Source of the DNA: a virus
Direction: 5' to 3' (one strand)
Virus record (IMG/VR): IMGVR_UViG_3300037189_012690
Coordinates: 1 to 64,000 of that record
DNA: 64,000 nucleotides
Under the pieces are notes generated by a model. The model saw only the letters and a program-made list of their open reading frames with translations. It did no database searches and had not been told where the DNA came from. Every line of letters begins with the position of its first letter. The stretch's first letter is position 1. Of this stretch, positions 14,149 through 52,256 are shown piece after piece. The position numbers and the translations under genes were made by a program.

Positions 14149-14223
14149 CCCATTTAGCTCAGTTGGTAGAGCAACTGATTAGTAATCAGTAGGTCGGCGG
14201 TTCGAATCCGTCAATGGGCACCA
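14148..14223 (+). tRNA. tRNA-Thr (AGT)
   Basis: Acceptor GCCCATT/AATGGGC, anticodon stem ACTGA/TCAGT, loop TTAGTAA giving anticodon AGT, T arm GGCGG-TTCGAAT-CCGTC, encoded CCA. An A at position 34 is rare among bacterial tRNAs other than Arg-ACG. A second Thr tRNA (TGT) lies at 18354. Confidence 0.9.
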
Positions 14224-14255
14224 CCAAATATATTGATATTTTACATTTTCCCATG

Positions 14256-14263
14256 TATAAATA
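14256..14263 (+). promoter_or_regulatory. T4 late promoter for dnaK
   Basis: Exact TATAAATA followed by C, giving a predicted leader of roughly 60 nt before the dnaK ATG. Confidence 0.8.
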
Positions 14264-14268
14264 CATGT

Positions 14269-14327
14269 CTCAGATGCGCCTTACGGGCTTCTGATAAAAA
14301 ATCTTGCTTAATTTAAAGGAGAAAAAT
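14269..14327 (+). promoter_or_regulatory. dnaK 5' leader with ROSE-like RNA thermometer
   Basis: Two hairpins are visible. The first (about 14271-14293) has CAGATGC pairing with GCTTCTG apart from mismatches. The second pairs CTTGCTT (14303-14309) with AAAGGAG (14315-14321) across a 5-nt loop. Six pairs form, with a single bulged G opposite the Shine-Dalgarno sequence. This is the hallmark of ROSE thermometers, in which a UUGCU strand masks AGGA. The same hairpin occurs before hsp20. It would block translation until the helix melts. Confidence 0.65.
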
Positions 14328-16220: not shown

Positions 16221-16226
16221 GCATCA

Positions 16227-16249
16227 AAGCGGGTGATTATCACCCGCTT
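16227..16249 (+). terminator. Hairpin after dnaK
   Basis: AAGCGGGTGA and TCACCCGCTT form a 10-bp stem around TTA. There is no T-run, so it may be a weak terminator or an RNA-stability hairpin. Confidence 0.6.
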
Positions 16250-16265
16250 CAATTATACCTTAACA

Positions 16266-16505
16266 ATGATAAGTTACCTAACTACCTTTCTTGCAGTGTT
16301 TGTAGTAGATATATTCTATACATACTATTTAAAAGCTATCAGTGAAAATGCCGCCCTAACAGCTAGTCTTTGGGGTGCTATTGTATGGTTAATTGGTAGT
16401 TTAGCTGTGATTGAATATACCGCCGATCATATGTTATTAATACCTGCATGTATAGGTGCATTTTGTGGTACATATGTAGGAATGAAACTTAGGAATAGAA
16501 AATAA
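16266..16505 (+). CDS. Small integral membrane protein
   Basis: 79 aa with three probable membrane segments: TFLAVFVVDIFYTYYL, LWGAIVWLIGSLAVI, and LLIPACIGAFCGTYVG. The start at 16266 follows the dnaK hairpin. The pattern is typical of small inner-membrane proteins found in phages and bacteria; function unknown. The stop directly precedes tRNA-Ser. Confidence 0.7.
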   Translation: MISYLTTFLAVFVVDIFYTYYLKAISENAALTASLWGAIVWLIGSLAVIEYTADHMLLIPACIGAFCGTYVGMKLRNRK

Positions 16506-16593
16506 GGAAGTGTGGTAGAGTGGCCGATTACACTAGCCTTGAAAGCTAGAGGCTCGAAAGGGTCCGTGAGTTCGAATCTCACCGCTTCCGCCA
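16506..16593 (+). tRNA. tRNA-Ser (TGA)
   Basis: Class II tRNA: acceptor GGAAGTG/CGCTTCC, anticodon TGA, long variable arm, discriminator G, encoded CCA. Confidence 0.95.
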
Positions 16594-16609
16594 AACAACG
16601 AGTGATATA

Positions 16610-17773
16610 ATGACAGATATAGTAGACGTAAATGATTTAATTGAACAGGGCAATGAATATCGTAATTCAACGCAGCCTGATAAAGCATTAGAATGTTATG
16701 CTCAAGCCTTTGTCAAAGACCCAACAAACCCTCATGCATGGAATAATTATGGAAATGTATTACGTGAAATGGGATATCCTGCACGTGCAATACCTTTCTT
16801 ACAACATGCATGTGCATTAGTGCCTGACTATATAACAGCACAGTTTAATCTATCAGTAGCATATATGTTAATGGGAGACTTAAAGCGTGGTCTTGAACAA
16901 TATGAATGGCGTTGGCAATATGAACATCTAGCAGATACAAAATATAAATTTTCTCAGCCTGAATGGAATGGTGAAGATTTAACAGGTAAAACTATCTTAG
17001 TATGTTGGGAACAAGGTTTAGGTGATACAATTCAATTCTATCGTTTTTTAAAATACTTAACTGCACTTGGTGCAAAAGTAATTTTCCATACACATCAGGG
17101 TATGCAAGAGTTATTTGAACGTGATCCTAATATTAATAGAGTTATTACTGATATCAATGATGCAGGTGAATTTGATTATTGGGTAATGACTATGAGTGTT
17201 CCTAGAGTATTAGGAGTAACTTATGATACATTGCCAAAAGAGATAGGATATATTCAAGCTGATCCTAATTTAGTTGAACAATGGCGAGTTGCATTAGGGC
17301 CTAAAACTAAAATGCGTATTGGTGTATGTTGGAGTGGTCGTAAAGATAGTTGGATCAATCAACATAAAGCAATGCCAGTAGAATTAATGATTCAGTTAGC
17401 ACAACTTAATCCTGATATTGAATGGGTTAGTTTACAGGCTGATGCAAGTCAACAAGAAATGCAATTAATAGAAAATAGTAATGCATTCTTAAGATTTCCT
17501 GGTCATATTAGACATTGGGGCGATACAGCAGCAGTTGTAGCGAATATGGATATGATAATCAGTGTAGATACAGCAATTGCACATTTAGCAGGTGCAATGG
17601 GTAAAGACTTATGGATACCATTGAATGCATTTGCAGTTGATTGGAGATATCTACTTAATACTGGATTAAGTCCATGGTATCCAACTGCTAGAATATTCAG
17701 ACAAGCAACATATGGTGATTGGATACCCGTATTAGAAGGAATGCATAGATTTTTGGATAAAGTCAGAATTTAA
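16610..17773 (+). CDS. TPR-repeat protein with glycosyltransferase-like C-terminal domain
   Basis: 387 aa. Residues about 5-105 are tetratricopeptide repeats (ALECYAQAFVKDPTNPHAWN, then AIPFLQHACALVPDYITAQF). The C-terminal part resembles GT-B transferases of the ADP-heptose or GT41 type: ILVCWEQGLGDTIQFYRFL, IGVCWSGRKDSW, and MIISVDTAIAHLAGAMGK for donor binding. It may add a sugar to a protein or surface glycan. No signal peptide. It sits inside the tRNA region between Ser(TGA) and an early promoter. Confidence 0.8.
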   Translation: MTDIVDVNDLIEQGNEYRNSTQPDKALECYAQAFVKDPTNPHAWNNYGNVLREMGYPARAIPFLQHACALVPDYITAQFNLSVAYMLMGDLKRGLEQYEWRWQYEHLADTKYKFSQPEWNGEDLTGKTILVCWEQGLGDTIQFYRFLKYLTALGAKVIFHTHQGMQELFERDPNINRVITDINDAGEFDYWVMTMSVPRVLGVTYDTLPKEIGYIQADPNLVEQWRVALGPKTKMRIGVCWSGRKDSWINQHKAMPVELMIQLAQLNPDIEWVSLQADASQQEMQLIENSNAFLRFPGHIRHWGDTAAVVANMDMIISVDTAIAHLAGAMGKDLWIPLNAFAVDWRYLLNTGLSPWYPTARIFRQATYGDWIPVLEGMHRFLDKVRI

Positions 17774-17777
17774 GTGT

Positions 17778-17806
17778 TTGACATTACTCTGCACTTATTA
17801 TATAAT
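17778..17806 (+). promoter_or_regulatory. Early sigma70-type promoter
   Basis: TTGACA (17778-17783), 17-bp spacer, TATAAT (17801-17806), 33 bases before the next ATG. It probably also feeds the downstream tRNAs. Confidence 0.9.
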
Positions 17807-17838
17807 TAAATCTCTTAAACCGTTATAAAGGACTATGT

Positions 17839-18060
17839 ATGAACAAATTTAATAGTTTGAAACCAGAAGTAAAGGCAATACTTGCATTGTTAGCTATGAT
17901 AGTAGGTGGTTATGCAGTACTATATTATATTAATCCAGTAGCTATAACATGGATTGCTATAGCACTTCTTGTTTATGCAATGTACAGTATGCTAGTGAGT
18001 TATTTTAGATTCTCACACGGTGTAGATAAGTTGAATGAGAAGTACGAGGACAAGCAGTAA
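17839..18060 (+). CDS. Small membrane protein
   Basis: 73 aa with two membrane segments (AILALLAMIVGGYAVLYYI and AITWIAIALLVYAMYSML) and a charged C-terminal tail. Preceded by a consensus early promoter and AAGGAC. Unknown function; its early expression suggests a host-takeover role (inference). Confidence 0.7.
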   Translation: MNKFNSLKPEVKAILALLAMIVGGYAVLYYINPVAITWIAIALLVYAMYSMLVSYFRFSHGVDKLNEKYEDKQ

Positions 18061-18070
18061 AGGTTGTATC

Positions 18071-18165
18071 GGAGAGTTGGCCGAGTTGGTCGAAGGCACC
18101 TTCCTGCTAAGAAGGCAAGCGGACACAAATCTGCTTCATTGGTTCGAATCCAATACTCTTCGCCA
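18071..18165 (+). tRNA. tRNA-Ser (GCT)
   Basis: Class II tRNA of 95 nt: acceptor GGAGAGT/ACTCTTC, anticodon GCT, discriminator G, encoded CCA. Confidence 0.95.
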
Positions 18166-18184
18166 TTAACATAAAGAGGAAAAT

Positions 18185-18346
18185 ATGGCAGTAAAAAAAG
18201 ATAGTAAACGTGATCCAATGAAAACTAAGACAGGCAAAACTAGATTAGGTCCTCTTAACGTAGAGCAGTTAACTAAACTTTTAGAATCAGCAAGACCTAA
18301 GCATGTTATGAAAATTAAACGTGCTATAGAAAGTAAGACTAAGTAG
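18185..18346 (+). CDS. Small basic phage protein, 53 aa
   Basis: ATG at 18185 is preceded by AGAGGA. A very lysine-rich start (VKKDSKRDPMKTKTGKTR) precedes a helical segment (LNVEQLTKLLESARPKH). This layout is common in small proteins of T4-like phages. Possibly nucleic-acid binding. It lies between two tRNA genes. Confidence 0.6.
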   Translation: MAVKKDSKRDPMKTKTGKTRLGPLNVEQLTKLLESARPKHVMKIKRAIESKTK

Positions 18347-18353
18347 TTAAAAC

Positions 18354-18427
18354 GCCCTTTTAGTTAAATGGTATAACAGTTGATTTGTAATCATCAATTG
18401 GCAGTTCGATTCTGTCAAGGGGCACCA
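18354..18427 (+). tRNA. tRNA-Thr (TGT)
   Basis: Acceptor GCCCTTT/AAGGGGC, anticodon loop TTTGTAA giving TGT, one mismatch in the anticodon stem, encoded CCA. Confidence 0.9.
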
Positions 18428-18437
18428 TTCAACAACT

Positions 18438-18667
18438 ATGCCACATCCAGCGGATATTACTAAACAGATACTTGATAGGATAATGAAACTTAAATCGTAC
18501 ACAGTAAGTGTACCGGTTGAAGAAGGCTGGCTGCCGCATGGTGTTGTACCGTTTGATATAAAGATTAAAAATTGTATTGCTACTGTTACACTACCTGCAT
18601 TAAGCAGAAAAGAAGCAAAGCAGAAGTTACAAGATTTTATCAATGGTGTAGATGAAGAAGATGATTG

Positions 18668-18677
<10 letters not shown>
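18438..18677 (+). CDS. Conserved phage-type protein, 79 aa
   Basis: 79 aa with a central beta-like segment (YTVSVPVEEGWLPHGVVPFD) and a helical acidic C terminus (DFINGVDEEDDW). No family recognised. The last 10 bases, including the stop codon, overlap the 5' end of the next tRNA gene. Confidence 0.6.
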
Positions 18678-18744
<67 letters not shown>

Positions 18745-18754
18745 AGTAGTAAAT

Positions 18755-18828
18755 GCGGGGTTAGTTTAATGGTAAAACGAAAGCCTTCCAAGCTCTAGTT
18801 GAGAGTTCGATTCTCTCACTCCGCTCCA
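18755..18828 (+). tRNA. tRNA-Gly (TCC)
   Basis: Acceptor GCGGGGT/ACTCCGC, anticodon loop CTTCCAA, T arm GAGAG-TTCGATT-CTCTC, encoded CCA. Confidence 0.95.
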
Positions 18829-18833
18829 GTAAT

Positions 18834-18917
18834 GCGAGAATGGTGGAATGGTATACACACAAGACTTAAAATCTTGCGCCGAAAGGATTGAGGGTTCAAG
18901 TCCCTCTTCTCGTACCA
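18834..18917 (+). tRNA. tRNA-Leu (TAA)
   Basis: Class II tRNA: acceptor GCGAGAA/TTCTCGT, anticodon stem CAAGA/TCTTG, anticodon TAA, encoded CCA. Confidence 0.95.
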
Positions 18918-18924
18918 TATTAAT

Positions 18925-19008
18925 GCGTAAGTGGTGGAATGGTATACACGCTGGTCTTAGAAGCCAGTGCCGAAAGGATTGAGAGTTCGAGTCTCTCCTT
19001 ACGCACCA
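18925..19008 (+). tRNA. tRNA-Leu (TAG)
   Basis: Class II tRNA: acceptor GCGTAAG/CTTACGC, anticodon TAG. The D arm and variable arm are nearly identical to the preceding tRNA-Leu, suggesting a local duplication. Encoded CCA. Confidence 0.95.
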
Positions 19009-19024
19009 ATTAATAAATAGATGT

Positions 19025-19201
19025 ATGAAAGTAAACGTATACATAAACGACACATTATACAAAACGATTGATTTAGGAAATGTAACTAGTTATAATCCTA
19101 AAGCAATTACTGACCTTGTATTCGCTGATAAAGAAGCAGGACTTATTCCTGCAAGTTTAAATTTAGATGAATCAATGTCAATTCGTATTGAAAGAGTGTA
19201 G
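19025..19201 (+). CDS. Small protein, 58 aa, unknown
   Basis: Starts at the ATG after TAATAAATAG, a late-like element, with no ribosome site. The sequence begins with a beta-like segment (VNVYINDTLYKTIDLG) and ends SMSIRIERV. No family recognised. It lies between tRNA-Leu and tRNA-Val. Confidence 0.55.
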   Translation: MKVNVYINDTLYKTIDLGNVTSYNPKAITDLVFADKEAGLIPASLNLDESMSIRIERV

Positions 19202-19207
19202 TCAACT

Positions 19208-19279
19208 GGGTGATTAACTCAGTGGTAGAGTAGCGCCTTTACACGGCGAATGTCGGGAGTTCGACCCTCTAATCACCCA
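19208..19279 (+). tRNA. tRNA-Val (TAC), CCA not encoded
   Basis: Acceptor GGGTGAT/ATCACCC, discriminator A, anticodon loop TTTACAC. The discriminator is followed by CTA rather than CCA, the only tRNA in the cluster without an encoded CCA. Confidence 0.9.
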
Positions 19280-19299
19280 CTAAACATAAAGGGAATACA

Positions 19300-19500
19300 A
19301 TGAAAGGCAGAACAAGTGAATTAGCTGCTAAGGCGGCAGGCGGTCTTTATGATTTAATTTTAATTGCAAGTGTGAGGGCACGTGAATTGAAAAGTGGTCA
19401 TGCACCTAAAATTGTTACTAAAGATAAAACTACAGTAACAGCATTAAGAGAAATCGAAGAAGGTCACATAGGTAGAGAATACCTAAACAAAATAAGATAA
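19300..19500 (+). CDS. rpoZ: RNA polymerase omega subunit-like protein
   Basis: 66 aa. The segment GLYDLILIASVRARELKSG matches the conserved helix of bacterial omega, which reads RFDLVLVAARRARQL. TTVTALREIEEGHIG matches its second signature (ALREIEEG). Omega latches the beta-prime subunit and helps RNA polymerase assembly. A phage copy could replace or compete with host omega. AAAGGGA precedes the ATG. It lacks the usual N-terminal residues before the first helix and has a short C-terminal tail. Confidence 0.85.
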   Translation: MKGRTSELAAKAAGGLYDLILIASVRARELKSGHAPKIVTKDKTTVTALREIEEGHIGREYLNKIR

Positions 19501-19505
19501 CATAT

Positions 19506-19579
19506 TCCGGTTTAGTATAATGGCAGTGCGATGGTCTCCAAAACCATTAGTGGGGGTTCGATTCCCTCAACCGGAGCCA
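19506..19579 (+). tRNA. tRNA-Trp (CCA)
   Basis: Acceptor TCCGGTT/AACCGGA, anticodon loop CTCCAAA, discriminator G, encoded CCA. Confidence 0.95.
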
Positions 19580-19586
19580 AACAATT

Positions 19587-19802
19587 ATGATACTTGTAGA
19601 AATATGTTCAGTAACAGGCCCATTAGCAGGCATGCCTCATAAAGCAAATGATAGATATAAAAAATTTTGCAATTGGGCTAAACAATACAATATCATTAAT
19701 TACAAATTTGTAGATAATAGTAAAAGAATCATTGAATTTTTAGATGATAAAGATTATACTCTATTTGTATTGACGTATCCACACGAATACAAAAAGCTTT
19801 AA
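19587..19802 (+). CDS. Small protein, 71 aa, unknown
   Basis: 71 aa starting MILVEICSVTGPLAG, with basic and aromatic stretches (RYKKFCNWAKQYN) and a C-terminal beta segment (YTLFVLTYP). No family recognised. Its stop codon is 1 base before tRNA-Cys; start chosen at the first ATG after tRNA-Trp. Confidence 0.5.
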   Translation: MILVEICSVTGPLAGMPHKANDRYKKFCNWAKQYNIINYKFVDNSKRIIEFLDDKDYTLFVLTYPHEYKKL

Positions 19803-19803
19803 T

Positions 19804-19881
19804 GCAACGGTGGCAGAGCGGCCCAATGCAGCAGATTGCAAATCTGTAAAACCGTGTGTTCAAATCACACCCGTTGCTCCA
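19804..19881 (+). tRNA. tRNA-Cys (GCA)
   Basis: Acceptor GCAACGG/CCGTTGC, anticodon loop TTGCAAA, discriminator T, encoded CCA. Confidence 0.95.
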
Positions 19882-37839: not shown

Positions 37840-38439
37840 TTAATATTGAGAAGTTGGTAAGTCAGTATAAGCAGACTTTGATTTAACTGGTTTTGGTTCT
37901 GGGGTTGATGGTTTTGGAGATACTAAATCACTTACATAATTTGAAATTTTACTAGTCCATGAATCATCAGCTTTCGGTGCCGATGGTATAGTTCTTTCAT
38001 CATGTACATAATCTGCTACATAATTTTGGGTTTGCTTGAATGGTGGAATTCCGCCGTACTTTTCAACAGCAGTTGGTCCTGCATTGTATGCTGCTAATGC
38101 TAATGTAGGATCTTTGCTATATCTATTGTAGTATTTGGCTAACAACTCTGTACCGCCTCGTATATTTTCATAAGGATCAGTACGATCCTTAACTCCTACA
38201 TCTTTTGCAGCTATAGGCATTAATTGCATAACACCTACTGCACGTTCACCACTTTTAGTTTTAGGACCTCTAACTGTTGCTCTTGCTGCAGGATCATCAG
38301 CTAGGTGTCCTGTTTCTTTCTTCATAGCATGTAAAACCATGCCAGGTGGAATCCCATACTTTTCAGCCATTTGTCTAGCATATTCATCATATGCTATTTG
38401 TGGCTTACTATCTTCAGTAATGAACTCGCTTGCTCTCAT
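37840..38439 (-). CDS. Lytic transglycosylase (SLT domain), tagged N terminus
   Basis: 199 aa. The SLT catalytic domain spans about residues 18-135: catalytic E42 in HAMKKETGHLA, AVGVMQLMP (GxMQ motif), ENIRGGTELLAKYY, and LALAAYNAGPTAV. It cleaves the glycan strands of peptidoglycan. The N terminus MRASEFITED resembles a T4 capsid-targeting tag with a possible gp21 site (I-T-E|D). This suggests an enzyme carried in the virion. The C-terminal third is proline-rich and disordered. Confidence 0.9.
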   Translation of the reverse strand: MRASEFITEDSKPQIAYDEYARQMAEKYGIPPGMVLHAMKKETGHLADDPAARATVRGPKTKSGERAVGVMQLMPIAAKDVGVKDRTDPYENIRGGTELLAKYYNRYSKDPTLALAAYNAGPTAVEKYGGIPPFKQTQNYVADYVHDERTIPSAPKADDSWTSKISNYVSDLVSPKPSTPEPKPVKSKSAYTDLPTSQY

Positions 38440-40040: not shown

Positions 40041-40126
40041 TATTCACCATCTATCTCTTCGGTTAACCAACGTATGAATAAAACTGCTGCTACAAAACCT
40101 ATTATGATTAAAAATGTGTTAATCAT
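40040..40126 (-). CDS. Membrane microprotein, 28 aa
   Basis: MINTFLIIIGFVAAVLFIRW plus an acidic tail. Its ATG overlaps the stop of the upstream gene (ATGA), and its TAA shares a base with the HAD gene start. The precise coupling on both sides supports a real single-helix membrane peptide. Confidence 0.55.
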   Translation of the reverse strand: MINTFLIIIGFVAAVLFIRWLTEEIDGE

Positions 40127-40473
40127 TTTGGTTCCTCTTTCTTATGATGAGGATGCGGTTCTTCTTCTACTGCCTGTCTAAATTTCTTTTCTGCCTCAAC
40201 ATCAACTTTATGTGCTTCCATAACACGTTCACTTTCAATAATCTTACCACGTAAATGAAGTGTAGTGTTAACTTTTTGTTGCAATCTTATTAAGTCATTA
40301 TCTAGCATACGAATACGGTCGATTAATGCAATCAATGTAGTATTCGCTTCACTGAGAACAGGCTTAATATCCTTAGTCGCCCATTCCCAAACATAGTATA
40401 TCATGTAACCGGTTCCGCCTGCAGCAACTATGGGAAAACCATATTTGTTAATTAAATCAGCTATGCCATCCAT
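40123..40473 (-). CDS. Membrane protein with helical tail, 116 aa
   Basis: 116 aa from ATG 40473; the longer frame starting near 40626 overlaps the upstream gene and is not needed. One helix (FPIVAAGGTGYMIYYVWEW) is followed by a coiled-coil region (LIALIDRIRMLDNDLIRLQQ) and a His/Glu/Pro-rich end. This architecture recurs in T4-like phages (compare 41417) and is holin- or spanin-like in outline, but function is unknown. Confidence 0.65.
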   Translation of the reverse strand: MDGIADLINKYGFPIVAAGGTGYMIYYVWEWATKDIKPVLSEANTTLIALIDRIRMLDNDLIRLQQKVNTTLHLRGKIIESERVMEAHKVDVEAEKKFRQAVEEEPHPHHKKEEPK

Positions 40474-41024
40474 TATACTATCATCCAAATAGCTTGTGCC
40501 ATTAGTATAGCACCAATACCGCCAACCCACAAGCTGGCCCAGAACATAGTCATACTCACTGCTAATATACTTGCTGATAATAACACAATTGCTAACTGAA
40601 ATGCAGTACCGGCAAATGTATACCACGGACTACGTTTTTTAGCTTCTGCTCTATCTGCTGCTAGTTTCTGAGCCTTAGCCATTAACTCTTTTTTACCCTC
40701 ACCTTTTTCAGGATCACTTTCGTATCTTGCAATCTTTGCTCTTAGCTTCTCAACCTTTGCTGCATCCTTACGTGACAATGCATCATCAAGTTGCCCTTCA
40801 GCAATACTTTGCTTAATACTTTTTGCTTGATAGAAACCCCAAGTATCGTTTGCTTCAATTGTATTGTTTAATATTTTACTACTATTACTATTGCCTAAGT
40901 AAGCATTAACTGCTAATAGTGCAGCAACAACTGTGATAACCCATCCTGCTTTATCTTTAATTTTAGCTTCGGCTTCACTTCTTGTCAATACTTTTCCTGT
41001 TGCTTTATCAATCATTTGTTTCAT
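40473..41024 (-). CDS. Membrane protein, DUF4337-like
   Basis: 183 aa. An N-terminal cytosolic helix leads to a membrane segment (WVITVVAALLAVNAYLG), then NTIEANDTWGFYQAKSIKQS, which is the recognisable DUF4337 core. A charged coil and two further membrane helices follow (LAIVLLSASILAVSMTM and LWVGGIGAILMAQAIWM). Function unknown. Ends overlap neighbours by 3-17 bp. Confidence 0.75.
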   Translation of the reverse strand: MKQMIDKATGKVLTRSEAEAKIKDKAGWVITVVAALLAVNAYLGNSNSSKILNNTIEANDTWGFYQAKSIKQSIAEGQLDDALSRKDAAKVEKLRAKIARYESDPEKGEGKKELMAKAQKLAADRAEAKKRSPWYTFAGTAFQLAIVLLSASILAVSMTMFWASLWVGGIGAILMAQAIWMIV

Positions 41025-41238: not shown

Positions 41239-41417
41239 TTAAGGAATAGCCAAAACCCTAAACCTATTCCTACTATGAATCCTATTGCTAATGATACTAT
41301 AATGTCATTTGTATTATGTTGTTCGTAATACTTACCTTGATTTTCTAGGTATATCTTGTAGTTCTCAGGTAATGACTCATACCATTGATTCCATTTGTTT
41401 CCTTTGAATATTTTCAT
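41235..41417 (-). CDS. Small single-pass membrane protein, 60 aa
   Basis: 60 aa with a basic/aromatic N terminus and a C-terminal helix (IIVSLAIGFIVGIGLGFWLF). It overlaps the upstream gene by one base and the downstream gene by 4 bp. Function unknown. Confidence 0.6.
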   Translation of the reverse strand: MKIFKGNKWNQWYESLPENYKIYLENQGKYYEQHNTNDIIVSLAIGFIVGIGLGFWLFLK

Positions 41418-41695
41418 TAGTCTCTCCTTGCATCGTTTTTTCCGTCTGCTCTCGCAATACGGTCTACGTCTGGTCTGAGTCCTAATGCATTACTTACTGT
41501 TACGTCAATTCTTACTACATCATGGTTCATGGTTTTAACACGATTATCTAGGGCCATAATAATGCCCTTGATACCCATAACACTACCTGTTACACCAGCC
41601 AAGATAAACTTCAATGTCAAAAACACGAAATACCCTGCGGCACATGCACCGGCAATGGGAAACCCCACTTCGGCGACTAATTTGAAAAAGTCCAT
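41417..41695 (-). CDS. Conserved phage membrane protein, 92 aa
   Basis: 92 aa. Two adjacent hydrophobic segments (FPIAGACAAGYFVFLTLKFI and VTGSVMGIKGIIMA) and a helical tail NRVKTMNHDVVRIDV. This is a common small membrane protein of T4-like environmental phages, similar in plan to the product at 40123. GGGAG lies 7 bases upstream of the ATG. It is the first gene of the minus-strand membrane-protein operon. Confidence 0.65.
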   Translation of the reverse strand: MDFFKLVAEVGFPIAGACAAGYFVFLTLKFILAGVTGSVMGIKGIIMALDNRVKTMNHDVVRIDVTVSNALGLRPDVDRIARADGKNDARRD

Positions 41696-41743: not shown

Positions 41744-41750
41744 CTAAATA
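41744..41750 (+). promoter_or_regulatory. Possible late promoter for the curli locus
   Basis: CTAAATA, 39 bases before the csgF-like ATG. The minus-strand ATAAATAC at 41765-41772 faces the other way towards 41695, so the intergenic region is a divergent late-promoter region. Confidence 0.45.
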
Positions 41751-41789: not shown

Positions 41790-42245
41790 ATGGTAGTCAA
41801 AAAAATAATAAAGGTGGCTGTTCTAACTGCACTAACCAGCGTAGTTTATGCTGCGCCTTTACCCGATTATAGTTTTAAAAGTCCATCCTTTAATGGTATT
41901 GGATACAGCAGCCACGTACTTACTATAGAGAATCAGGAACATACTAGAAAAGAACAATTGAGGAAAGATATACAGTCAGCAATAGATAAGGCTGCAGCAG
42001 ATGCCAAAAACACAAATCTACAGAAATTCCTTAATAACTTAGAATCACGAATCTATGCACAAATCAGTCAAAACTTAGCAACTGCTATGTTTGCTAATGG
42101 TGGTAGTAATAGTGGTACACTGAACTTTGAGGGGAATAATATTTCATGGACGAAAGATTCTAGCAACGTATATTTGACAGTAACAGATTTAGTAGGGAAC
42201 ACCACACAGATTACAGTACCATTAGGACAATTTCAATTTCAATAA
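41790..42245 (+). CDS. csgF: Curli assembly protein CsgF-like
   Basis: 151 aa. The signal peptide (residues 1-21, ALTSVVYA|A) is followed by the CsgF layout. An N-terminal segment (DYSFKSPSFNGIGYSSHVL) corresponds to the part that inserts in the CsgG pore. A helical middle follows (NNLESRIYAQISQNLATAMF). A C-terminal beta domain (VYLTVTDLVGNTTQITVPLG) ends the protein. CsgF sits at the outer surface and couples secretion to curlin nucleation. The TAATG overlap with csgG shows translational coupling. Confidence 0.9.
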   Translation: MVVKKIIKVAVLTALTSVVYAAPLPDYSFKSPSFNGIGYSSHVLTIENQEHTRKEQLRKDIQSAIDKAAADAKNTNLQKFLNNLESRIYAQISQNLATAMFANGGSNSGTLNFEGNNISWTKDSSNVYLTVTDLVGNTTQITVPLGQFQFQ

Positions 42246-43387
42246 TGAGAACAATAAAAATATTATTATTACTAAGTTTATTATCAGGATGTGCAGTATC
42301 GCAAAACGAGCGTATGGGGTCAGCTCCTAAACCTGTTAATATGCCAGTAATGATGCAAAAAGAATTTGATAAGATTCCGGGTCCTGCAGGTGGACAACCT
42401 ATTACAGTAGCACTGTATGGATTTACAGATAAAACAGGTCAGCGTAGACCACAACAAAACGTAGCAAGTTTAAGCACTGCAGTAACACAAGGCGGTGAAA
42501 TGTTTTTGATTAAAGCATTGCAAGATGTAGGACAAGGTAAGTGGTTCAAAGTAGTTGAACGTGTAGGCATAGATGGCTTAACACGTGAACGACAATTGAT
42601 TCGTCAAATGCGTGAAGCATATGAAGGATCAAATGCTAAGCCTTTGCCACCTATGATGTTCGCCGGTATATTATTAGAAGGTGGCATAGTTGGATATGAT
42701 AGTTCAACTAAGTCAGGCGGTATGGCAGCACGTTGGTTAGGCATAGGACCTCAAACACAATATAGTGAAGATATTGTTACTGTGAGTATCCGTGCTATCA
42801 GTGTAAGCACAGGTGAAGTATTAGCAGCAGTAACAATGCAGAAAACAATTGTTAGTGCAGGTGACTCAGTAGCAGCAATGAAGTTCTTTGACGTGGGCAC
42901 CAAAGCGTTTGAATTTGAAGCAGGGTTAACTGTAAATGAGCCAGGGACATTTGCAGTTAAGAGTGCAATTGAAGCAGCAGTGCTTGAATTGATTAAAGAA
43001 GGTGCACGTAAAGGTATCTGGGCAATTGAAGATACTAAACCTGGCGTAATAATTATACCCGCTTCAAAGCAAGAACCTAAGGTGGAAACAAAAAAAGAAG
43101 ATGTAAAGAAAGAAGAACCTAAGGTAGAAGTAAAAGAAGAACCAAAAGAAGAGCCTAAGGAAGAAGTTAAATCCGAAGAGCCAAAAGTACAAGAAGTTGA
43201 CACACACAGTGAAACAAAAGAATCAAATGATAATAGGTTTGCTCAAAAAAGTAAAGTATTAGTGATGATACCTATAAAGATGAGTAAGCCTACTATTAAG
43301 ATGAAACAAGAAGAAAAACATGCTAGAAAAATTAGCAATAAAAAACAGGTCATTAAGAACCTGCACAATAAAAAAAAGAAAAAGTAA
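42245..43387 (+). CDS. csgG: Curli secretion channel CsgG with long charged C-terminal extension
   Basis: 380 aa. Lipobox LLSGC (C16) marks an outer-membrane lipoprotein. The CsgG core is clear: ITVALYGFTDKTGQRRP, LIKALQDVGQGKWFKVVER, and MFAGILLEGGIVGYDSSTKS followed by GGMAARWLGIGPQTQY and VSTGEVLAAVTMQKTI. CsgG forms a nonameric pore exporting curlin. Beyond about residue 270 is a Lys/Glu/Pro-rich extension and a very basic C-terminal tail, absent from normal CsgG (about 277 aa). Confidence 0.97.
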   Translation: MRTIKILLLLSLLSGCAVSQNERMGSAPKPVNMPVMMQKEFDKIPGPAGGQPITVALYGFTDKTGQRRPQQNVASLSTAVTQGGEMFLIKALQDVGQGKWFKVVERVGIDGLTRERQLIRQMREAYEGSNAKPLPPMMFAGILLEGGIVGYDSSTKSGGMAARWLGIGPQTQYSEDIVTVSIRAISVSTGEVLAAVTMQKTIVSAGDSVAAMKFFDVGTKAFEFEAGLTVNEPGTFAVKSAIEAAVLELIKEGARKGIWAIEDTKPGVIIIPASKQEPKVETKKEDVKKEEPKVEVKEEPKEEPKEEVKSEEPKVQEVDTHSETKESNDNRFAQKSKVLVMIPIKMSKPTIKMKQEEKHARKISNKKQVIKNLHNKKKKK

Positions 43388-43403: not shown

Positions 43404-44183
43404 ATGAAAACAAAAATAGTAGTAATGATGGCGTTATTAACTTTAGCCAGTGTTGCTATATCAGGGGACAACAAAGTTTATTTGGATCAAATTGGTGATC
43501 GTAGCACTATTACTATAACTCAAGACGGATCGAGCAACACCGTTAAGGGTATAGGAATAGCACAAGATGCTAATGCTAAAATATATGGTGATGATACTGC
43601 AGTAACAATCACACAAACAGGTATCAACAATCGTTTAACATTAGGTATTAACGGCGGATCATTAGGTTCAACAAACGTGTTCAGCTACAGTGTTTCAGGT
43701 AACAATGGCATTGCACTTATAAATTGTAATGACGCTGAAACAGGAAAATGTAATCGTAACAATATTGGTATTACACAAGTAGGTAATAATTCACAGGCTA
43801 ACGTTTCAATTAGCGGTGAAAACAATGTAGTTACTGGTAACAGTGCAGGTGGTAATAACAATGCAATGAACTTTAACATCATTGGTGATGGATTACATCC
43901 TAGCATTGGTATCACAGGCGGTGGCGGTAACACAGGTAATATTACATTAGCTCCTAGTGTAGGTATTAATGCTACTGCTACTATGGTTATAGCGGGTGCT
44001 AATAATAATGTGTCTATTAATCAAACTGGTGGTGCAGTACTAGGACATAGTGCTACATTAGCAGTTACAGGTAGTGGCAATACATTATCAGTAACTCAAT
44101 CAGGTACTGCAGGTGATAACACATTTAATTTACAAAGTTCAGGAAGTACTAATTCATTTACAATAACACAAACTGCCCAATAA
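43404..44183 (+). CDS. Curlin-repeat amyloid subunit (CsgA/CsgB-like), 259 aa
   Basis: A Sec signal (TKIVVMMALLTLASVAISG) precedes repeated curlin motifs of the form N-x-h-x-I-x-Q-x-G-x-x-N: YLDQIGDRSTITITQDGSSN, VTITQTGINNRLTLGING, IGITQVGNNSQANVSISG, VSINQTG, LSVTQSGTAGDN, and SFTITQTAQ. It is longer and more irregular than E. coli CsgA, with Gly/Asn-rich inserts. It would be exported by CsgG and polymerise outside the cell. Located 16 bp after csgG, with no promoter between. Confidence 0.92.
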   Translation: MKTKIVVMMALLTLASVAISGDNKVYLDQIGDRSTITITQDGSSNTVKGIGIAQDANAKIYGDDTAVTITQTGINNRLTLGINGGSLGSTNVFSYSVSGNNGIALINCNDAETGKCNRNNIGITQVGNNSQANVSISGENNVVTGNSAGGNNNAMNFNIIGDGLHPSIGITGGGGNTGNITLAPSVGINATATMVIAGANNNVSINQTGGAVLGHSATLAVTGSGNTLSVTQSGTAGDNTFNLQSSGSTNSFTITQTAQ

Positions 44184-44193
44184 GGGGAAGGAG

Positions 44194-45303
44194 ATGAAAA
44201 CATGGTACCTAAGAATATCCTTACTATTGCTGAGCATATCGCCAATGAACGTAAACGCAGCAATAGGGACGATAACGGAACAAGTTCAGACTCCGCCTTC
44301 GATACTACGACAGAAGCAGACGTTGACGGGGTCCAAAGGGACTGGACTGGAGATGTTAGATACGGTAAGAACCCAACAGGGAAAAGTGGGACTCACGTTC
44401 GCAGACAACACAAAGGTACAGGTAACGGAGAATAGTAAACTAGTTATAGATGATTTTGTTTATGATCCTAACAGCAAGACAGGTGGAAAACTTGCTGTTA
44501 ATATAGCATTAGGTACCGTACGTTACGCATCAGGTCAAATAGCAAAGAACAATCCACAATCAGTAGCAGTTAATACTCCATCAGCCACAATTGGTGTTCG
44601 TGGTACAGACTTCACCGCAGCAGTAGATGAACTTGGTCGTAGTACTATTGTGTTGTTGCCTAGTTGTCCAGTAGGCTGGCGTGATGTTAAAACAGATTGT
44701 AAGACAGGTGAGATTAGTGTAACAAGTGATGAAGGTGTTGTGATAATGAATCAACCTTTTCAGGCTACTGTAGTACAAACACGTGAAACAAAACCTATGA
44801 AGCCAGTTATATTAAAACTGGATGAAGACCAAATGAATAATTTATTGATTATGACTCCAGTTAAATCTGAGAACAACAATGAAGCACGTGGTGATACTAA
44901 AAAAGGTTTTCTAGACGTTGATTATTTAAAATATGAAGGACTAGATAATGTATTAGCAACACAAGATCCATTCAAGTATAGTAAATTAGATGTTAATTTT
45001 TTAGAAAGAGATTTTCTAGTTAATATACTTGATTTAATTAATGCTATGCTTAAAGCGCAGATGGATTATTTAGAGAATGCTAATGCTAGACTGTTACCTG
45101 ATTATGTAGCATTAACTGGTGTAGTAGCAGTCATTGAAGATCCAATTGTGCAATTATGTCGTGAAGATAATGGCAGTAACATTGCATGTGCTACAGTAAG
45201 ACAAACTAGAGATGTGACTATTACTATTAATCAAGAACGTATGGAATTTAAGAATCGTGTCAATGCAGGTGGCACAAGCAATATAACAATTACACAACAT
45301 TAA
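44194..45303 (+). CDS. FecR-domain secreted protein ending in a curlin-like motif
   Basis: 369 aa with a signal peptide (LLLLSISPMNVNA|A). The FecR domain is visible in VGLTFADNTKVQVTENSKLV, GTVRYASGQI and the signature TPSATIGVRGTDFTAAVD. The C-terminal third is helical, then ends VNAGGTSNITITQH, which matches a curlin repeat half. This suggests the protein can dock on or seed the fibre. FecR-domain proteins often sit beside CHASE2 cyclases, as here. The start overlaps no gene; 2 bases separate it from the next. Confidence 0.9.
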   Translation: MKTWYLRISLLLLSISPMNVNAAIGTITEQVQTPPSILRQKQTLTGSKGTGLEMLDTVRTQQGKVGLTFADNTKVQVTENSKLVIDDFVYDPNSKTGGKLAVNIALGTVRYASGQIAKNNPQSVAVNTPSATIGVRGTDFTAAVDELGRSTIVLLPSCPVGWRDVKTDCKTGEISVTSDEGVVIMNQPFQATVVQTRETKPMKPVILKLDEDQMNNLLIMTPVKSENNNEARGDTKKGFLDVDYLKYEGLDNVLATQDPFKYSKLDVNFLERDFLVNILDLINAMLKAQMDYLENANARLLPDYVALTGVVAVIEDPIVQLCREDNGSNIACATVRQTRDVTITINQERMEFKNRVNAGGTSNITITQH

Positions 45304-45304
45304 G

Positions 45305-45898
45305 ATGAACTTTAGACTAGCTACTATATTATATTTTGTTTTAGTTTTACTACTATTAGTGGTGGGTTATGCATGGAGTGCAGACAATACAATTAGTGTA
45401 GATCAAATTGGTACTGGCAATACAGTTACTATTGAACAAACAGGGTTAGGACACACCGCCACTATAAACACAGGCAGTATTAGTGATGTAGATTATTCTG
45501 TGTTTACAATAACTCAACAAGGTGCTGCTAAAACAGCAACCGTTGAAGTTAAAGCCGGAATTAATAACACAATAGACATTAATCAAAGTGGTTCAGGTAA
45601 TCACATAGCTAACATACAGAATTTACAAGGTAATGGTAACAGTATTACTATAGGACAAACAGGTTCAGGATCTCATACTTTAATTGTTGATGGTAATAAT
45701 GTAAATAATGGTAACACTATAACATCTACCCAAAGCGGTGATGTAGGATCAGATAAATGGTTTAAAGTTTATCTACACGGTGCAACAAATGCAACAGTCA
45801 ATGTAGTACAGGATAATCCAACTACAGTAGACCAAGCAAGTATTATGATTAACTGTGCCCCAGGCACGTGCGGCATGTATAGTTATATTAAACATTAG
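45305..45898 (+). CDS. Second curlin-repeat protein (CsgB-like), 197 aa
   Basis: A long hydrophobic N-terminal signal or anchor (LATILYFVLVLLLLVVGYAW) is followed by curlin repeats: ISVDQIGTGNTVTIEQTGLG, FTITQQGAAKTATVE, IDINQSGSGNHIANIQN, ITIGQTGSGSHTLIVDG. The C terminus (SIMINCAPGTCGMYSYIKH) has two cysteines and departs from the repeat. The retained hydrophobic N terminus and odd tail would suit a nucleator such as CsgB, but the role split between the two curlins is inference. Confidence 0.88.
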   Translation: MNFRLATILYFVLVLLLLVVGYAWSADNTISVDQIGTGNTVTIEQTGLGHTATINTGSISDVDYSVFTITQQGAAKTATVEVKAGINNTIDINQSGSGNHIANIQNLQGNGNSITIGQTGSGSHTLIVDGNNVNNGNTITSTQSGDVGSDKWFKVYLHGATNATVNVVQDNPTTVDQASIMINCAPGTCGMYSYIKH

Positions 45899-45907
45899 AC
45901 TATAAGA

Positions 45908-46051
45908 ATGAACATTGAATTAATTCTACGTATGATTGAACATGGTTATACTGTGCAGGATATCCATCTAAGACTTAGACACCGTATAGAACTAATAGAA
46001 CTAGTTATCCAAAATCATGAAAAATGGAAGCGGGAAGTAGAACAACAATAA
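45908..46051 (+). CDS. Small helical protein, 47 aa
   Basis: ATG at 45908, 10 bases after the CsgB-like stop. Predicted helix-rich with RMIEHGYTVQDIHLRLRHRI; the segment may form a small helix-turn-helix. Last gene of the curli transcript before the terminator. Function unknown. Confidence 0.5.
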   Translation: MNIELILRMIEHGYTVQDIHLRLRHRIELIELVIQNHEKWKREVEQQ

Positions 46052-46073
46052 TAAAGTAGTACGGTAGTTTTTG

Positions 46074-46113
46074 GTAGCGGTCTAATTATATCTAGTTAGA
46101 CTGCTATTTTTTT
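46074..46113 (+). terminator. Rho-independent terminator ending the curli transcript
   Basis: GTAGCGGTCTAA pairs with TTAGACTGCTAT (one G-T pair) across an AT-rich loop, followed by seven Ts. Confidence 0.85.
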
Positions 46114-46117
46114 GTGT

Positions 46118-46125
46118 CTAAATAC
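46118..46125 (+). promoter_or_regulatory. Late-type promoter
   Basis: CTAAATAC, 24 bases before the cyclase ATG, with TAAGGTAG between. It overlaps the end of the terminator region. Confidence 0.6.
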
Positions 46126-46149
46126 TATTACAAACTATAAGGTAGATAG

Positions 46150-48204
46150 ATGATTAAGAAAATATTATTAAGCCCTTGGACTTCACTAATAACACTAGCA
46201 TTGTTAGCATTATTGCGCATTGCAGATCCTGCATTTGTGGAATCAATTCGTCTACGATATTTTGATACTGTAATAATCAGTCAACCTATAACACAAAACA
46301 ACATCTACACCGTAAACATAGATGAGGCTACACTAGATAAGTATGGACAATGGCCTTTACCCAGAAATGAATATGCTAATCTAATTGATGAATTATATAA
46401 ACGTCATGCGGGGCTTGTAGTGTGGAATATATTAATGCCTGAAGCCGATCGTAACGGACAAGATGAAGCACTAGCAGAATCATTAGCAACTCATCCTGTA
46501 GTATTAAGTAACACACCTTCAGCACGTAGTAAGAATACACCTAAACAAGTTGGTGTAAGTATTATGCGTCCTGAATTTGTTGATAGAATTGTAGTGTATC
46601 CTGGATTAATTGCTAACGTAAGCCCATTAGAAGAAAATGCTGCAGGTGTTGGTATTGCAAATGTAATGCCTGAGATTGATGGTGTTAATCGTAGATTACC
46701 TTTAGTAGTAAGTGTAAATGATTTACTATATCCTTCAATAGCATTAGAAACATTACGTGTTGCTGCAGGTGATCCAAGTTTTCAAATTAAATTAAATGAA
46801 CTAGGTGTAGAGAAAATGCGTATACCTCAGTTCGGACCAATCAGCACTGATCCATTAGGTCGTATATGGATTGATTGGAGTCAAAGTAATAAGAGTGTAA
46901 GTGCAGTTGACTTACCCGCAGACTTTGGTGGTGCAATAGTAATCGTAGGAACAAGTGCAGCAGGTATAGCTAATCCAGTACCAACAGCACGTGGTGCAGT
47001 ATATCCACAAGATGTACAAGCAGCAGTAATTGGCACAATGATTAATGGAGTTAACATCGAACGTCCTGATTGGATAGACGGTGCTGAGATATTAGGCTTG
47101 ATACTAGTAGGTCTAATAATTATTTTTATATCAAGGTGGACATATGCTGGAATTATTATATCTGTCATTATTATTGGCAGCGTTGTGCCCGGTAGTTTTT
47201 ATACTTTTACCAAGTACAAATGGCTTGTCGATGCCACTGCGCTTATTGTTAGTAGTGTGTTGGTTATGCTACATTGCTATGGCATTAAGTTCATAAGTGA
47301 ATTTTTACAAAAACAACAAATTAAGAAACAGTTTGGTACATACTTATCACCAGACTTAGTTGCACAATTGCAACGACAACCCGATCTACTTAAGTTAGGT
47401 GGAGAAAGCCAAGAATTGTCTATTATGTTTACTGATGTTCGTGGCTTTACAACAATCAGTGAACATTATGGCAAAGACGTTCAGGGTCTTACAAAGATCA
47501 TGAATAGGTACATGACTGCTATGACAAAAAAGATACTAGAAAACAAAGGTACATTAGACAAGTATATTGGCGATGCACAAATGGCTTTCTGGAATGCTCC
47601 AGTAGGTAATAGCAATCATGCAAAAGATGCTGTTAAAACGGCATTAGAGATGATGGAAAGTTTAACTGAGTTCAATGAAGAAATTACGAAAGAAGGTGTG
47701 CCAGCTTTTGGTATGGGTCTGGGAATCAATACCGATACTGTTGTTGTGGGAAATATGGGGTCTAGTCAACGTTTTGACTATACTTGCCTTGGTGATGGTG
47801 TCAATCTTGCTTCACGTTTGGAAGGACAGTCTAAGCCTTATGGTGTCAAGATTGTATTAGGACCTAAGACAGCAGAACAGATAAGTGATGATTACTTCAC
47901 ATTAGAATTAGATATTATAGCAGTAAAAGGTAAGACTGAAGGTGTTAGAATCTTTACAGTATTAAAAACAGATGCAAACTCAATGGCAGAATATTTAGTA
48001 TCACGTGTAGAACATGACCTGATGCTGGATCACTACCGCAAGCAAAAGTGGGATGAAGCATTAGAACTACTGAACCAACTTCATGGGGAATTTGATTCAG
48101 AGATGGACAAATACTATCATATGATGATAGAAAGAATAGGAGAACTACGTGAACAAAATTTACCTTCTGATTGGGATACTGTGTATCGCACCAACTCTAA
48201 GTAA
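46150..48204 (+). CDS. CHASE2-domain adenylate cyclase (class III)
   Basis: 684 aa. An N-terminal helix and a periplasmic CHASE2 sensor (about 30-310) lead to three membrane helices (about 313-380) and a cytoplasmic cyclase domain. Metal aspartates are D429 (MFTDVRGFTT) and D475 (YIGDAQMAF). K471 is the adenine-selecting lysine, T545 sits where class IIIa enzymes have Asp (DYTCLGDGVN), and N552/R556 stabilise the transition state. It should make cAMP. Placement after the FecR and curlin genes suggests signalling from the fibre or envelope (inference). Confidence 0.93.
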   Translation: MIKKILLSPWTSLITLALLALLRIADPAFVESIRLRYFDTVIISQPITQNNIYTVNIDEATLDKYGQWPLPRNEYANLIDELYKRHAGLVVWNILMPEADRNGQDEALAESLATHPVVLSNTPSARSKNTPKQVGVSIMRPEFVDRIVVYPGLIANVSPLEENAAGVGIANVMPEIDGVNRRLPLVVSVNDLLYPSIALETLRVAAGDPSFQIKLNELGVEKMRIPQFGPISTDPLGRIWIDWSQSNKSVSAVDLPADFGGAIVIVGTSAAGIANPVPTARGAVYPQDVQAAVIGTMINGVNIERPDWIDGAEILGLILVGLIIIFISRWTYAGIIISVIIIGSVVPGSFYTFTKYKWLVDATALIVSSVLVMLHCYGIKFISEFLQKQQIKKQFGTYLSPDLVAQLQRQPDLLKLGGESQELSIMFTDVRGFTTISEHYGKDVQGLTKIMNRYMTAMTKKILENKGTLDKYIGDAQMAFWNAPVGNSNHAKDAVKTALEMMESLTEFNEEITKEGVPAFGMGLGINTDTVVVGNMGSSQRFDYTCLGDGVNLASRLEGQSKPYGVKIVLGPKTAEQISDDYFTLELDIIAVKGKTEGVRIFTVLKTDANSMAEYLVSRVEHDLMLDHYRKQKWDEALELLNQLHGEFDSEMDKYYHMMIERIGELREQNLPSDWDTVYRTNSK

Positions 48205-48463
48205 TGCAGAGCAACATTCTGTACCGTTTGAAGTAATATGTGATGATACTGCAGTTATAGTGCAGACATTAAAAAAAGAATATGTTGAGGTACCAATAGT
48301 AGTGGGAAAAGGATTAGGATCAAGTCAACATATGATATCCTTTTGGGGAAATCCTGAAACCAAAACATTTACAGTAATAGATACTTACGGTGATACTTCA
48401 TGTATCCTTGGAGTAGGTACTGGTGTTGAAGTTATAGAACAATCTGCAGGACCTAAAACTTAA
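48149..48463 (+). CDS. Small secreted protein, 104 aa
   Basis: Starts with GTG at 48149 inside the cyclase 3' end (56-bp overlap, other frame). A signal peptide (YLLIGILCIAPTLSNA|E) precedes a small domain with two cysteines (VICDDTAVIVQTL and DTSCILGVG). The type occurs repeatedly in T4-like environmental phages; periplasmic, function unknown. Confidence 0.65.
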   Translation: MNKIYLLIGILCIAPTLSNAEQHSVPFEVICDDTAVIVQTLKKEYVEVPIVVGKGLGSSQHMISFWGNPETKTFTVIDTYGDTSCILGVGTGVEVIEQSAGPKT

Positions 48464-51419: not shown

Positions 51420-52256
51420 TTAAATCTCCACGTATTGTAATTTAAAATTATCAGCACGATCCTCAAAGTCAATATAACCTCGTGGGTTACATACTATTCT
51501 AGTTGTGCCAATCATATAATCAAATGGTTCATGGGTATGCCCATGAGTCCATAATTTAATTTGTCTACGATCCAAAATAAAATCGTTTAAGTCAGTACTA
51601 TATGCACCATTCATCACAACTTCAGTTTTATATCTAGGATGTGTACTTGCCTTACTTGGCGCATGATGCCCTACAACTACCACTTTATGATCAGGATAAT
51701 TTTTCAACACACTGTCTAATGCTCTACGAAACGCATAATGATCCTCTACTGAATCTTCTGGTAAGAATTTTCCACCTGCATTAGCACCAGTATTCTTAAT
51801 CTGAATGTAGTCATTCATAGCACCACGTATTTGCATCATAGTGATTGGATCTTCATTATTCATGTTAGTCCATAATGTACCACCATAGAATACAACACCT
51901 TTGATGATTAAAAAGTCTTTGTCCAAATAATTAAAGTTTTCTAAATCACTAAATGACTTACGAATAGTATCATGTGTAGTAGCAAAGTCTCCATGATAGT
52001 GTTCGTGATTGCCTGACACCATAATAACTTCAGGGAAACGTTCACAGCAACGTAGTATAAAATTATTATAACGTTTGCCTCGATCAACTAAACTTTGCAT
52101 AACCGGTATAACTAACCCATCTTCATTTTGATAATTCTTCAAATCATTAGCAATAAAGATATCGCCGCTAAGGATGAGGACATCTGCGCCCTCATCATTT
52201 TGCAAATCTAAATCTCCAAACTCTAAATGGAGATCACTACATACTGCTATTTTCAT
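51420..52256 (-). CDS. Metallophosphoesterase
   Basis: 278 aa. Complete calcineurin-like metal motifs: AVCSDLHLEF (D-x-H), ILSGDIF (GD), VSGNHEHYHG (GNHE), VVVGHHAPS and WTHGHTHEPFDY (GHTH). The enzyme should hydrolyse phosphoesters; substrate unknown. It is the intact relative of the catalytically degenerate protein at 56260. Overlaps the upstream gene by 4 bp. Confidence 0.92.
   Translation of the reverse strand: MKIAVCSDLHLEFGDLDLQNDEGADVLILSGDIFIANDLKNYQNEDGLVIPVMQSLVDRGKRYNNFILRCCERFPEVIMVSGNHEHYHGDFATTHDTIRKSFSDLENFNYLDKDFLIIKGVVFYGGTLWTNMNNEDPITMMQIRGAMNDYIQIKNTGANAGGKFLPEDSVEDHYAFRRALDSVLKNYPDHKVVVVGHHAPSKASTHPRYKTEVVMNGAYSTDLNDFILDRRQIKLWTHGHTHEPFDYMIGTTRIVCNPRGYIDFEDRADNFKLQYVEI

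Follow-up and report, generated by a model that had tools for sequence, protein, structure and literature searches.

What might a phage do with a curli locus in which a FecR-domain protein lies between two curlins and a membrane cyclase with a CHASE2 domain follows? The question is raised by a stretch of DNA, hereafter the window, which comprises 64,000 of the 64,596 bases of the IMG/VR virus record IMGVR_UViG_3300037189_012690 and in which csgF, csgG, curlin 1, FecR, curlin 2 and a CHASE2-class III cyclase follow one another on the + strand, all six with a Pfam match exceeding the curated cut-off. The reading preferred here, at a probability of roughly 0.37, is that of a late phage device that would equip the infected cell with a curli-type fibre, with the FecR protein anchoring the fibre and reporting its state to the CHASE2 cyclase. 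The module is laid out in the window as follows.

41744–41750, + strand: CTAAATA, T4-late-promoter-like motif, 46 nucleotides (nt) 5' of csgF
41790–42245, + strand: csgF (PF10614, E = 2.4e-13)
42245–43387, + strand: csgG, outer-membrane curli pore (PF03783, E = 2.1e-46)
43404–44183, + strand: curlin-repeat protein 1 (PF07012, E = 2.9e-8)
44194–45303, + strand: FecR-domain protein, 369 residues (PF04773 at residues 56–152, E = 1e-10), with a signal-peptide-like N-terminus, the FecR domain at 21–219, a low-confidence stretch at 221–280, a helix at 278–300 and a six-stranded domain at 305–369
45106–45300, + strand: C-terminal domain of FecR, with curlin-like motifs ending at Q347 and Q368 (spacing 21)
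45305–45898, + strand: curlin-repeat protein 2 (PF07012, E = 4.5e-11)
46073–46108, + strand: terminator-like hairpin and T run in the gap between curlin 2 and the cyclase (–19.1 kcal/mol, z –6.3)
46118–46124, + strand: CTAAATA, T4-late-promoter-like motif, 32 nt 5' of the cyclase
46150–48204, + strand: CHASE2-class III adenylate/guanylate cyclase, 684 residues (CHASE2 15–323, catalytic domain 420–597, tail to 684)

An earlier note on this DNA, made from the sequence alone, had described a secreted FecR-domain protein between two curlins and, in a separate operon, a CHASE2-class III cyclase with all its catalytic residues. Searches for FecR (PF04773), CHASE2 (PF05226) and Guanylate_cyc (PF00211), as well as the curlin matches (PF07012), bear this out, the FecR protein does start with an N-terminal hydrophobic signal, the coordinates were right, and the separate operon is plausible given the strong hairpin and the CTAAATA at 46118 in front of the cyclase. 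The combination of curli, FecR and cyclase is not new in phages. Phage curli genes were first reported in 2020 (Zaragoza-Solas et al., PMC7029224), and curli genes together with those for FecR and adenylate cyclase were published for podovirus and myovirus pelagiphages in 2022 (Wittmers et al., 2022, PMC9599517). In that paper, the clusters hold CsgF, CsgG, a curlin and FecR, often with a second curlin and adenylate cyclase, CsgC, CsgD and CsgE are reported absent, an alphaproteobacterial origin is reported, and FecR is read as an iron-type regulator.

Since this gene set is published and is also present in the phages Melnitz (EXVC044M) and HTVC008M, the window is a divergent member of the published pelagiphage module. 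As in the pelagiphage clusters, csgF, csgG, curlin, FecR and cyclase are collocated in the same order, and the published "histidine kinase" before csgF matches by position a pair of small genes in the window, here called c0A and c0B; the FecR protein, taken for an iron-type regulator there, is here read as a fibre-linked anchor (PMC9599517). Melnitz and HTVC008M show the same gene arrangement, with c0 pair, FecR and cyclase all in place, and are distant from the window, with cyclase identities of 38–39%. In the Melnitz paper, the CsgG-type pore is treated as a lysis device, csgA and csgB are stated to be lacking, and the words "cyclase" and "FecR" do not occur (PMC9004378); contrary to the paper, FecR, the cyclase and two curlin-repeat proteins are all annotated in the GenBank record. 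Relatives of the cyclase occur in 8 of 50,697 phage records, six of them with at least 80% length cover and 38–39% identity (records near the window were perhaps omitted), and IMG/VR holds at least 592, counted from the best 600 pattern matches. Fixed-phrase searching of the literature (phrases such as "phage-encoded adenylate cyclase") found no paper, and Pelagibacter was mentioned in none among the matches listed for Pelagibacter with cyclic adenosine monophosphate (cAMP), Crp or adenylate cyclase.

How firmly the FecR–cyclase pair belongs to such loci was profiled in the best 80 IMG/VR loci, two isolates and the window, scored as three locus sets that overlap and contain near-duplicates; loci of at least 17 kb are called long, and L001, a partial copy of the window, was left out. 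Around the cyclase (82 loci, 44 long), FecR, CsgF, CsgG and curlin were found in 43 of the 44 long loci, the exception, L079, sharing its contig with L096, where some 11 kb separate the four from the cyclase. Around FecR (80 loci, 32 long), CsgF, CsgG and curlin are present in 32/32 and the cyclase in 30/32, one of the misses being L096, while around CsgG (26 loci, 15 long) FecR is present in 15/15 and the cyclase in 14/15. The module is also found on a 353-kb contig (L172). The pair, whose co-occurrence with csgG in other phages the earlier note had put forward for checking, with its absence from all related curli phages as the contrary outcome, is thus a constant element of curli loci in phages. 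Of the 140 loci that encode all three of cyclase, FecR and CsgG (the window and some duplicated contigs included), 126 have the cyclase and FecR genes on one strand; in the other 14 the two genes lie on different strands, yet no more than 5.9 kb separates them, a figure bounded by the 8–10 kb flanks of the loci. The linkage survives inversion and therefore argues for a shared function, beyond mere co-transcription.

The strongest tie between FecR and the fibre is its C-terminus, which in the window reads SNITITQH. The corresponding motif, [ILVTSFMN]x[ILVTSMF]xQ within 8 residues of the end (hydrophobic or polar, any residue, hydrophobic or polar, any residue, Gln), is present in 143 of 147 non-redundant complete FecR relatives, a set obtained by dropping 3'-truncated proteins and those of at most 250 residues (178 to 174) and then duplicates in the last 150 residues. 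The motif is found in 162 of 268 curlins and, as controls, in 3/156 cyclases, 5/146 CsgGs, 0/114 c0A and 5/126 c0B proteins and 11% of random internal ends; against the cyclases and CsgGs in particular, its frequency in FecR is beyond chance, and the curlin-like end recorded in the earlier note holds across the relatives. A second motif lies 18–25 residues upstream in 103/147 FecRs, compared with 8.8% of shuffles, and the commonest motif spacings in curlins are 11 and 22–27. With a curlin profile, 77/147 FecR tails reach at least 5 bits, as do 0/147 mid-regions and 31/735 shuffled tails. In an alignment of 57 of 73 FecRs (A1, truncated and near-duplicate ones left out), the Gln beside the C-terminus is the only invariant residue outside positions 25–201. 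The conserved, apparently curlin-like FecR end, often with a second motif one repeat upstream, is new here.

The fold of the protein was modelled with AlphaFold2 from 53 relatives (alignment A4 was made without the two isolates and also without L037 and L073, and A5 additionally without L022 and L051). In the model, both the FecR domain and the six-stranded C-terminal domain are confident, and a helix is seen at 278–300; the predicted local distance difference test score (pLDDT) of residues 221–280 is low (block means about 40–52), and that of the C-terminal domain modelled alone is 89.8. The modelled FecR domain matches the periplasmic signalling domain of PupR (6OVK; Z 15.2 over 135 residues, root-mean-square deviation (rmsd) 2.6), and its residues 21–117 match 5IX9, a "Cell surface anchoring domain" (Z 9.7, rmsd 2.2 over 73/76 residues, Foldseek E 0.016), which we take to be the anchor of a Marinomonas RTX adhesin. 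In an iron-type FecR regulator, a cytoplasmic anti-sigma N-terminus precedes the FecR domain. No such N-terminus was found in the window FecR, which has a signal-peptide-like start and no second Pfam domain above cut-off. The FecR profile gave two weak pilin rows against the PDB sequences (E 0.36 and 0.65), and in the viral fold library the rows at E ≤ 0.001 are two other phage FecR proteins only. A PupR-like FecR domain with an anchoring-domain-like first half, as predicted by the model, is new here. No paper naming 5IX9 was found, and "FecR domain" was mentioned in none among the matches listed for FecR domains with retention or RTX adhesins. A membrane-anchoring domain first described in a Marinomonas RTX adhesin is mentioned in PMC13090378.

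As for the cyclase, CHASE2 is matched at E = 2e-40 (139.5 bits, cut-off 26.3) and Guanylate_cyc at E = 8.5e-22, and all six class III catalytic positions are occupied (D429, K471, D475, T545, N552 and R556), which we take to be the two metal-binding Asp, the substrate Lys and Thr/Asp, and the transition-state Asn and Arg. The set DKDTNR is found in 72 of 81 phage cyclases, the window included. A substrate-site Lys with Thr or Asp points to adenosine triphosphate (ATP), and the catalytic domain has adenylate cyclases as its solved relatives (6FHT, E = 3e-32; CyaB, 3R5G, E = 1e-26); the membrane cyclase probably makes cAMP. In 14 of the 82 cyclase-centred loci (L003 at 2968–3288, L004, L005, L006, L008, L022, L027, L028, L049, L050, L062, L066, L071 and L076), the cyclase's C-terminal tail is also encoded separately, as a protein of about 100–130 residues. 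This protein often lies near a metallophosphoesterase or csgF and may possibly be a regulator of the cyclase.

When the module would be expressed is suggested by short motifs at the gene starts. HTAAATA, the core of the T4 late promoter TATAAATA, was counted from 90 nt before to 30 nt after each start and was found at 75/142 csgF, 43/134 cyclase and 90/123 c0A genes, and at 2/143 CsgG, 4/149 FecR and 2/125 c0B genes; HTAAATA covers three 7-mers and a permuted 7-mer averages 2.6–3.8, so about 10 are expected. In the window, 8 of 17 CTAAATA occurrences (those at 41744 and 46118 included) lie within 70 nt upstream of an open reading frame (ORF), compared with 7.5% for permuted 7-mers, as do 5 of 8 occurrences of TATAAATA. 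Both are likely to be late-promoter motifs of this phage, and the distribution of HTAAATA suggests three late units, namely c0A–c0B, csgF through curlin 2, and the cyclase. The putative T4-type late-promoter motifs before csgF, the cyclase and the c0 pair are new here. The c0 pair lies on the opposite strand:

41417–41695, – strand: c0A, paralogue of c0B, with the conserved C-terminus GKNDARRD (phrog_18771)
40123–40467, – strand: c0B, small, with one membrane-like and one coiled-coil-like stretch, weakly holin-like (phrog_18771)

Between the two, at 40473–41024, there is a DUF4337 protein (PF14235, E = 6.9e-30) from a cluster of 8 members.

Similar partnerships exist in bacteria, where, according to the earlier note, FecR and CHASE2-cyclase genes often adjoin. 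In 289 genomes from the class of a Rhodobacteraceae metagenome-assembled genome (MAG; G001), a profile search gave a cyclase match (E ≤ 1e-30) in 171 and a FecR match (E ≤ 1e-15) in 92. A FecR match lies within 5 kb of the cyclase in at least 23 of the best 102 bacterial cyclase rows listed (89 genomes, two G001 rows excluded), whereas an even spread of FecR matches over 4-Mb genomes would give about 0.5%, which agrees with the note; in the 19 top cyclase regions (6–17 kb) FecR was found in 4. Of 23 FecR ORFs found in bacteria, 17 were scanned for domains, and four of the seven large ones (1,364–2,086 residues) carry RTX, Calx-beta, VWA or cadherin/Ig-type domains, with FecR near the N-terminus. 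The presence of such apparently RTX-type adhesins among the FecR neighbours of bacterial CHASE2 cyclases is new here. In Burkholderia, a biofilm operon has a LysM-FecR gene beside a CHASE2 histidine kinase (PMC5192318), and CHASE2 cyclases of Sinorhizobium respond via an outer-membrane barrel protein (PMC13001267). Taken with the adhesin-FecR proteins, these cases indicate that CHASE2 sensors have repeatedly been paired with envelope or surface proteins. As in the phage, a FecR-domain gene lies near an inner-membrane CHASE2 sensor in the bacterial pairs, the Burkholderia one included; what FecR is joined to is an RTX/cadherin-type or LysM part in the bacteria and a curlin-like end in the phage.

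The preferred reading would run as follows. CsgG and CsgF would export both curlins, and a curli-type fibre would form on the infected cell. FecR would be both a periplasmic anchor and a reporter: its folded domain would stay in the periplasm as a plug, its linker, probably unstructured, would pass through the CsgG/CsgF pore, and its curlin-like tail would join or cap the fibre outside. In the inner membrane, the cyclase would use its CHASE2 domain to read FecR as free or fibre-engaged and thereby switch the conversion of ATP to cAMP, which would act via a host receptor; the benefit might be the timing of late infection or lysis, or the holding together of infected cells. The layout is likened by analogy to LapA/RTX-type adhesins, in which a folded domain lies inside, one segment spans the pore and the adhesive part is external, and whose retention fold is the one matched by FecR residues 21–117 in the predicted model; these adhesins leave by a TolC-like channel, whereas FecR would leave by CsgG. 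The signalling loop from fibre to FecR, CHASE2 and cAMP is a good hypothesis.

A more far-reaching form of it, in which FecR threads the curli pore as a trans-envelope fibre sensor and the state of the fibre sets the cyclase, coupling the outside to host cAMP and late infection, is doubtful, and it is equally speculative that the events sensed would be neighbours, a surface or other phages. If such a sensor existed, a virus would sense its surroundings through an amyloid-type fibre, the reading of an adhesin-anchored FecR domain by CHASE2 may be a general route from adhesin to cAMP in bacteria, and a signal would be suggested for CHASE2 domains, for which it was described as unknown in 2016 (PMC5192318). 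So far, phage curli have prompted guesses that range from the capture of siblings to pores for lysis; the conserved FecR end, the bacterial adhesin link and the late-type motifs together propose a concrete wiring of fibre, anchor, sensor and second messenger.

Several observations weigh against the anchor-and-reporter reading. In a mirror-tree comparison, for which loci at least 97% alike in the cyclase were dropped (140 to 116), FecR distances correlate with those of CsgF (rho 0.57–0.69), the FecR tail best (0.69), which is consistent with a partner on the CsgF side, and correlate weakly with those of the cyclase (rho 0.03–0.30). Choosing the loci for their similarity to the window narrowed the range, and the comparison is too noisy for a decision on FecR and CHASE2; because CHASE2 and the catalytic domain of one cyclase correlate at 0.23 only, the test is blunt and speaks neither for nor against a contact. 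The FecR domain model is closer to anti-sigma sensor domains than to the adhesin anchor 5IX9. A curlin fold for the C-terminal domain, tried as a candidate, was not borne out, no solved structure having matched (best Z 3.2, best Foldseek E 0.32) in a comparison whose listed rows include no curlin structure and which thereby does not exclude that fold; the curlin likeness of the tail is therefore one of sequence pattern. On that pattern too there are reservations, as CsgF ends in the tail motif in 34/142 cases and the curlin profile gives FecR tails low scores, with a maximum of 11.1 bits.

On the side of the cyclase, 7 of the 81 phage proteins, that of Melnitz included, read D-K-D-D-S-R, with Ser in place of the transition-state Asn, and two, HTVC008M included, read D-K-D-S-N-R, with Ser at the T545 position; the window has neither replacement. 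A phage-encoded cAMP receptor was considered and rejected, a cyclic-nucleotide-binding protein (PF00027) being found in 0 of 44 phage records, many of them fragments, with a control positive in 10 of 14 genomes, and any cAMP effect would therefore run through the host. The late-promoter motifs are not over-represented across the window, with 17 CTAAATA against 22.5 expected and 8 TATAAATA against 11.2. In the bacteria, no curli were found in the 19 cyclase regions with phage-derived profiles, which may miss distant ones, and 13 of the 17 scanned FecR partners (three large ones and ten of 304–826 residues) have FecR alone above cut-off. The last count, together with a linker that is less clearly unstructured, slightly lowers the confidence in the full mechanism.

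The alternative that survives best, rather unlikely as it is, makes the locus a system of lysis timing, in which CsgG/CsgF would open the outer membrane, the c0 pair would be holin-like, cAMP or FecR would tune the timing and fibres would be secondary. The Melnitz pore has been so interpreted (PMC9004378), the late-type motifs and a transglycosylase-like gene at 37840–38439 would suit it, and c0A and c0B are each present in 44/44 long cyclase-centred loci, with weak matches to a holin family (PHROG 4898, 7 of 12 members, best E 1.1e-4) and to YvrJ (2 of 12, best E 0.0052, below cut-off). From these matches the pair is holin-like at most, and their weakness counts against a lysis system, as do the curlin genes in 43/44 long cyclase-centred loci and the long loci in which c0A and c0B are missing, namely 5 and 4 of the 32 FecR-centred ones (27 and 28 have them) and 4 and 3 of the 15 CsgG-centred ones (11 and 12 have them), some perhaps only lying beyond the flank. 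In the isolates the c0 pair lies directly before csgF, where the literature has a "histidine kinase" or two hypothetical proteins; by position, the pair is perhaps what was so named, and HisKA/HATPase is not among the 10 Pfam families listed at E ≤ 1 for 12 c0 members.

An unlikely second alternative is that the cyclase acts alone on host metabolism, through cAMP or another cyclic nucleotide, and owes its closeness to FecR to an inherited bacterial pair, with no direct tie to the fibre. The bacterial FecR–CHASE2 cyclase pairs with no curli found in the 19 regions, the cyclase's own position behind a terminator and a CTAAATA motif, and the weak FecR–cyclase distance correlation would all be expected if this were so; that the linkage to curli is kept through inversions, and that the phage FecR has a curlin-like end, argues for the tie to the fibre. 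The least probable alternative, in which FecR and the cyclase would sense conditions such as iron or the envelope and regulate curli production, has been proposed for pelagiphages (PMC9599517) and fits the match of the FecR fold to anti-sigma sensor domains, but the phage FecR, with its signal-peptide-like start, no anti-sigma part and a C-terminus common to fibre subunits, was set aside as an iron regulator on these grounds, and the late-type motifs on both the curli and the cyclase units suggest that curli expression need not wait for cAMP.

Some further genes lie in or near such modules. The Rhodobacteraceae MAG G001 holds two phage-like curli–FecR–cyclase modules on contigs C129 and C173 (L192, L222 and L271, with a similar contig in L189), which are likely to be binned phage contigs; the genome scan made with a single cyclase sequence retained one contig, and an alignment query would reach farther. 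A roughly 680-residue protein whose start resembles a signal peptide (cluster c31, 9 members) lies between csgF and csgG in L073, L078 and L080 and 3' of FecR in L006, L044, L050 and L076. In the window, a small protein with a signal-peptide-like start (48149–48463, cluster of 11 members) has an ORF that overlaps the 3' end of the cyclase, and a metallophosphoesterase (phrog_1649, E = 2.9e-56; cluster c10, in 16 loci) lies 3' of the cyclase at 51420–52256. Sixteen transfer RNA genes are found at 9927–19881 of the window.

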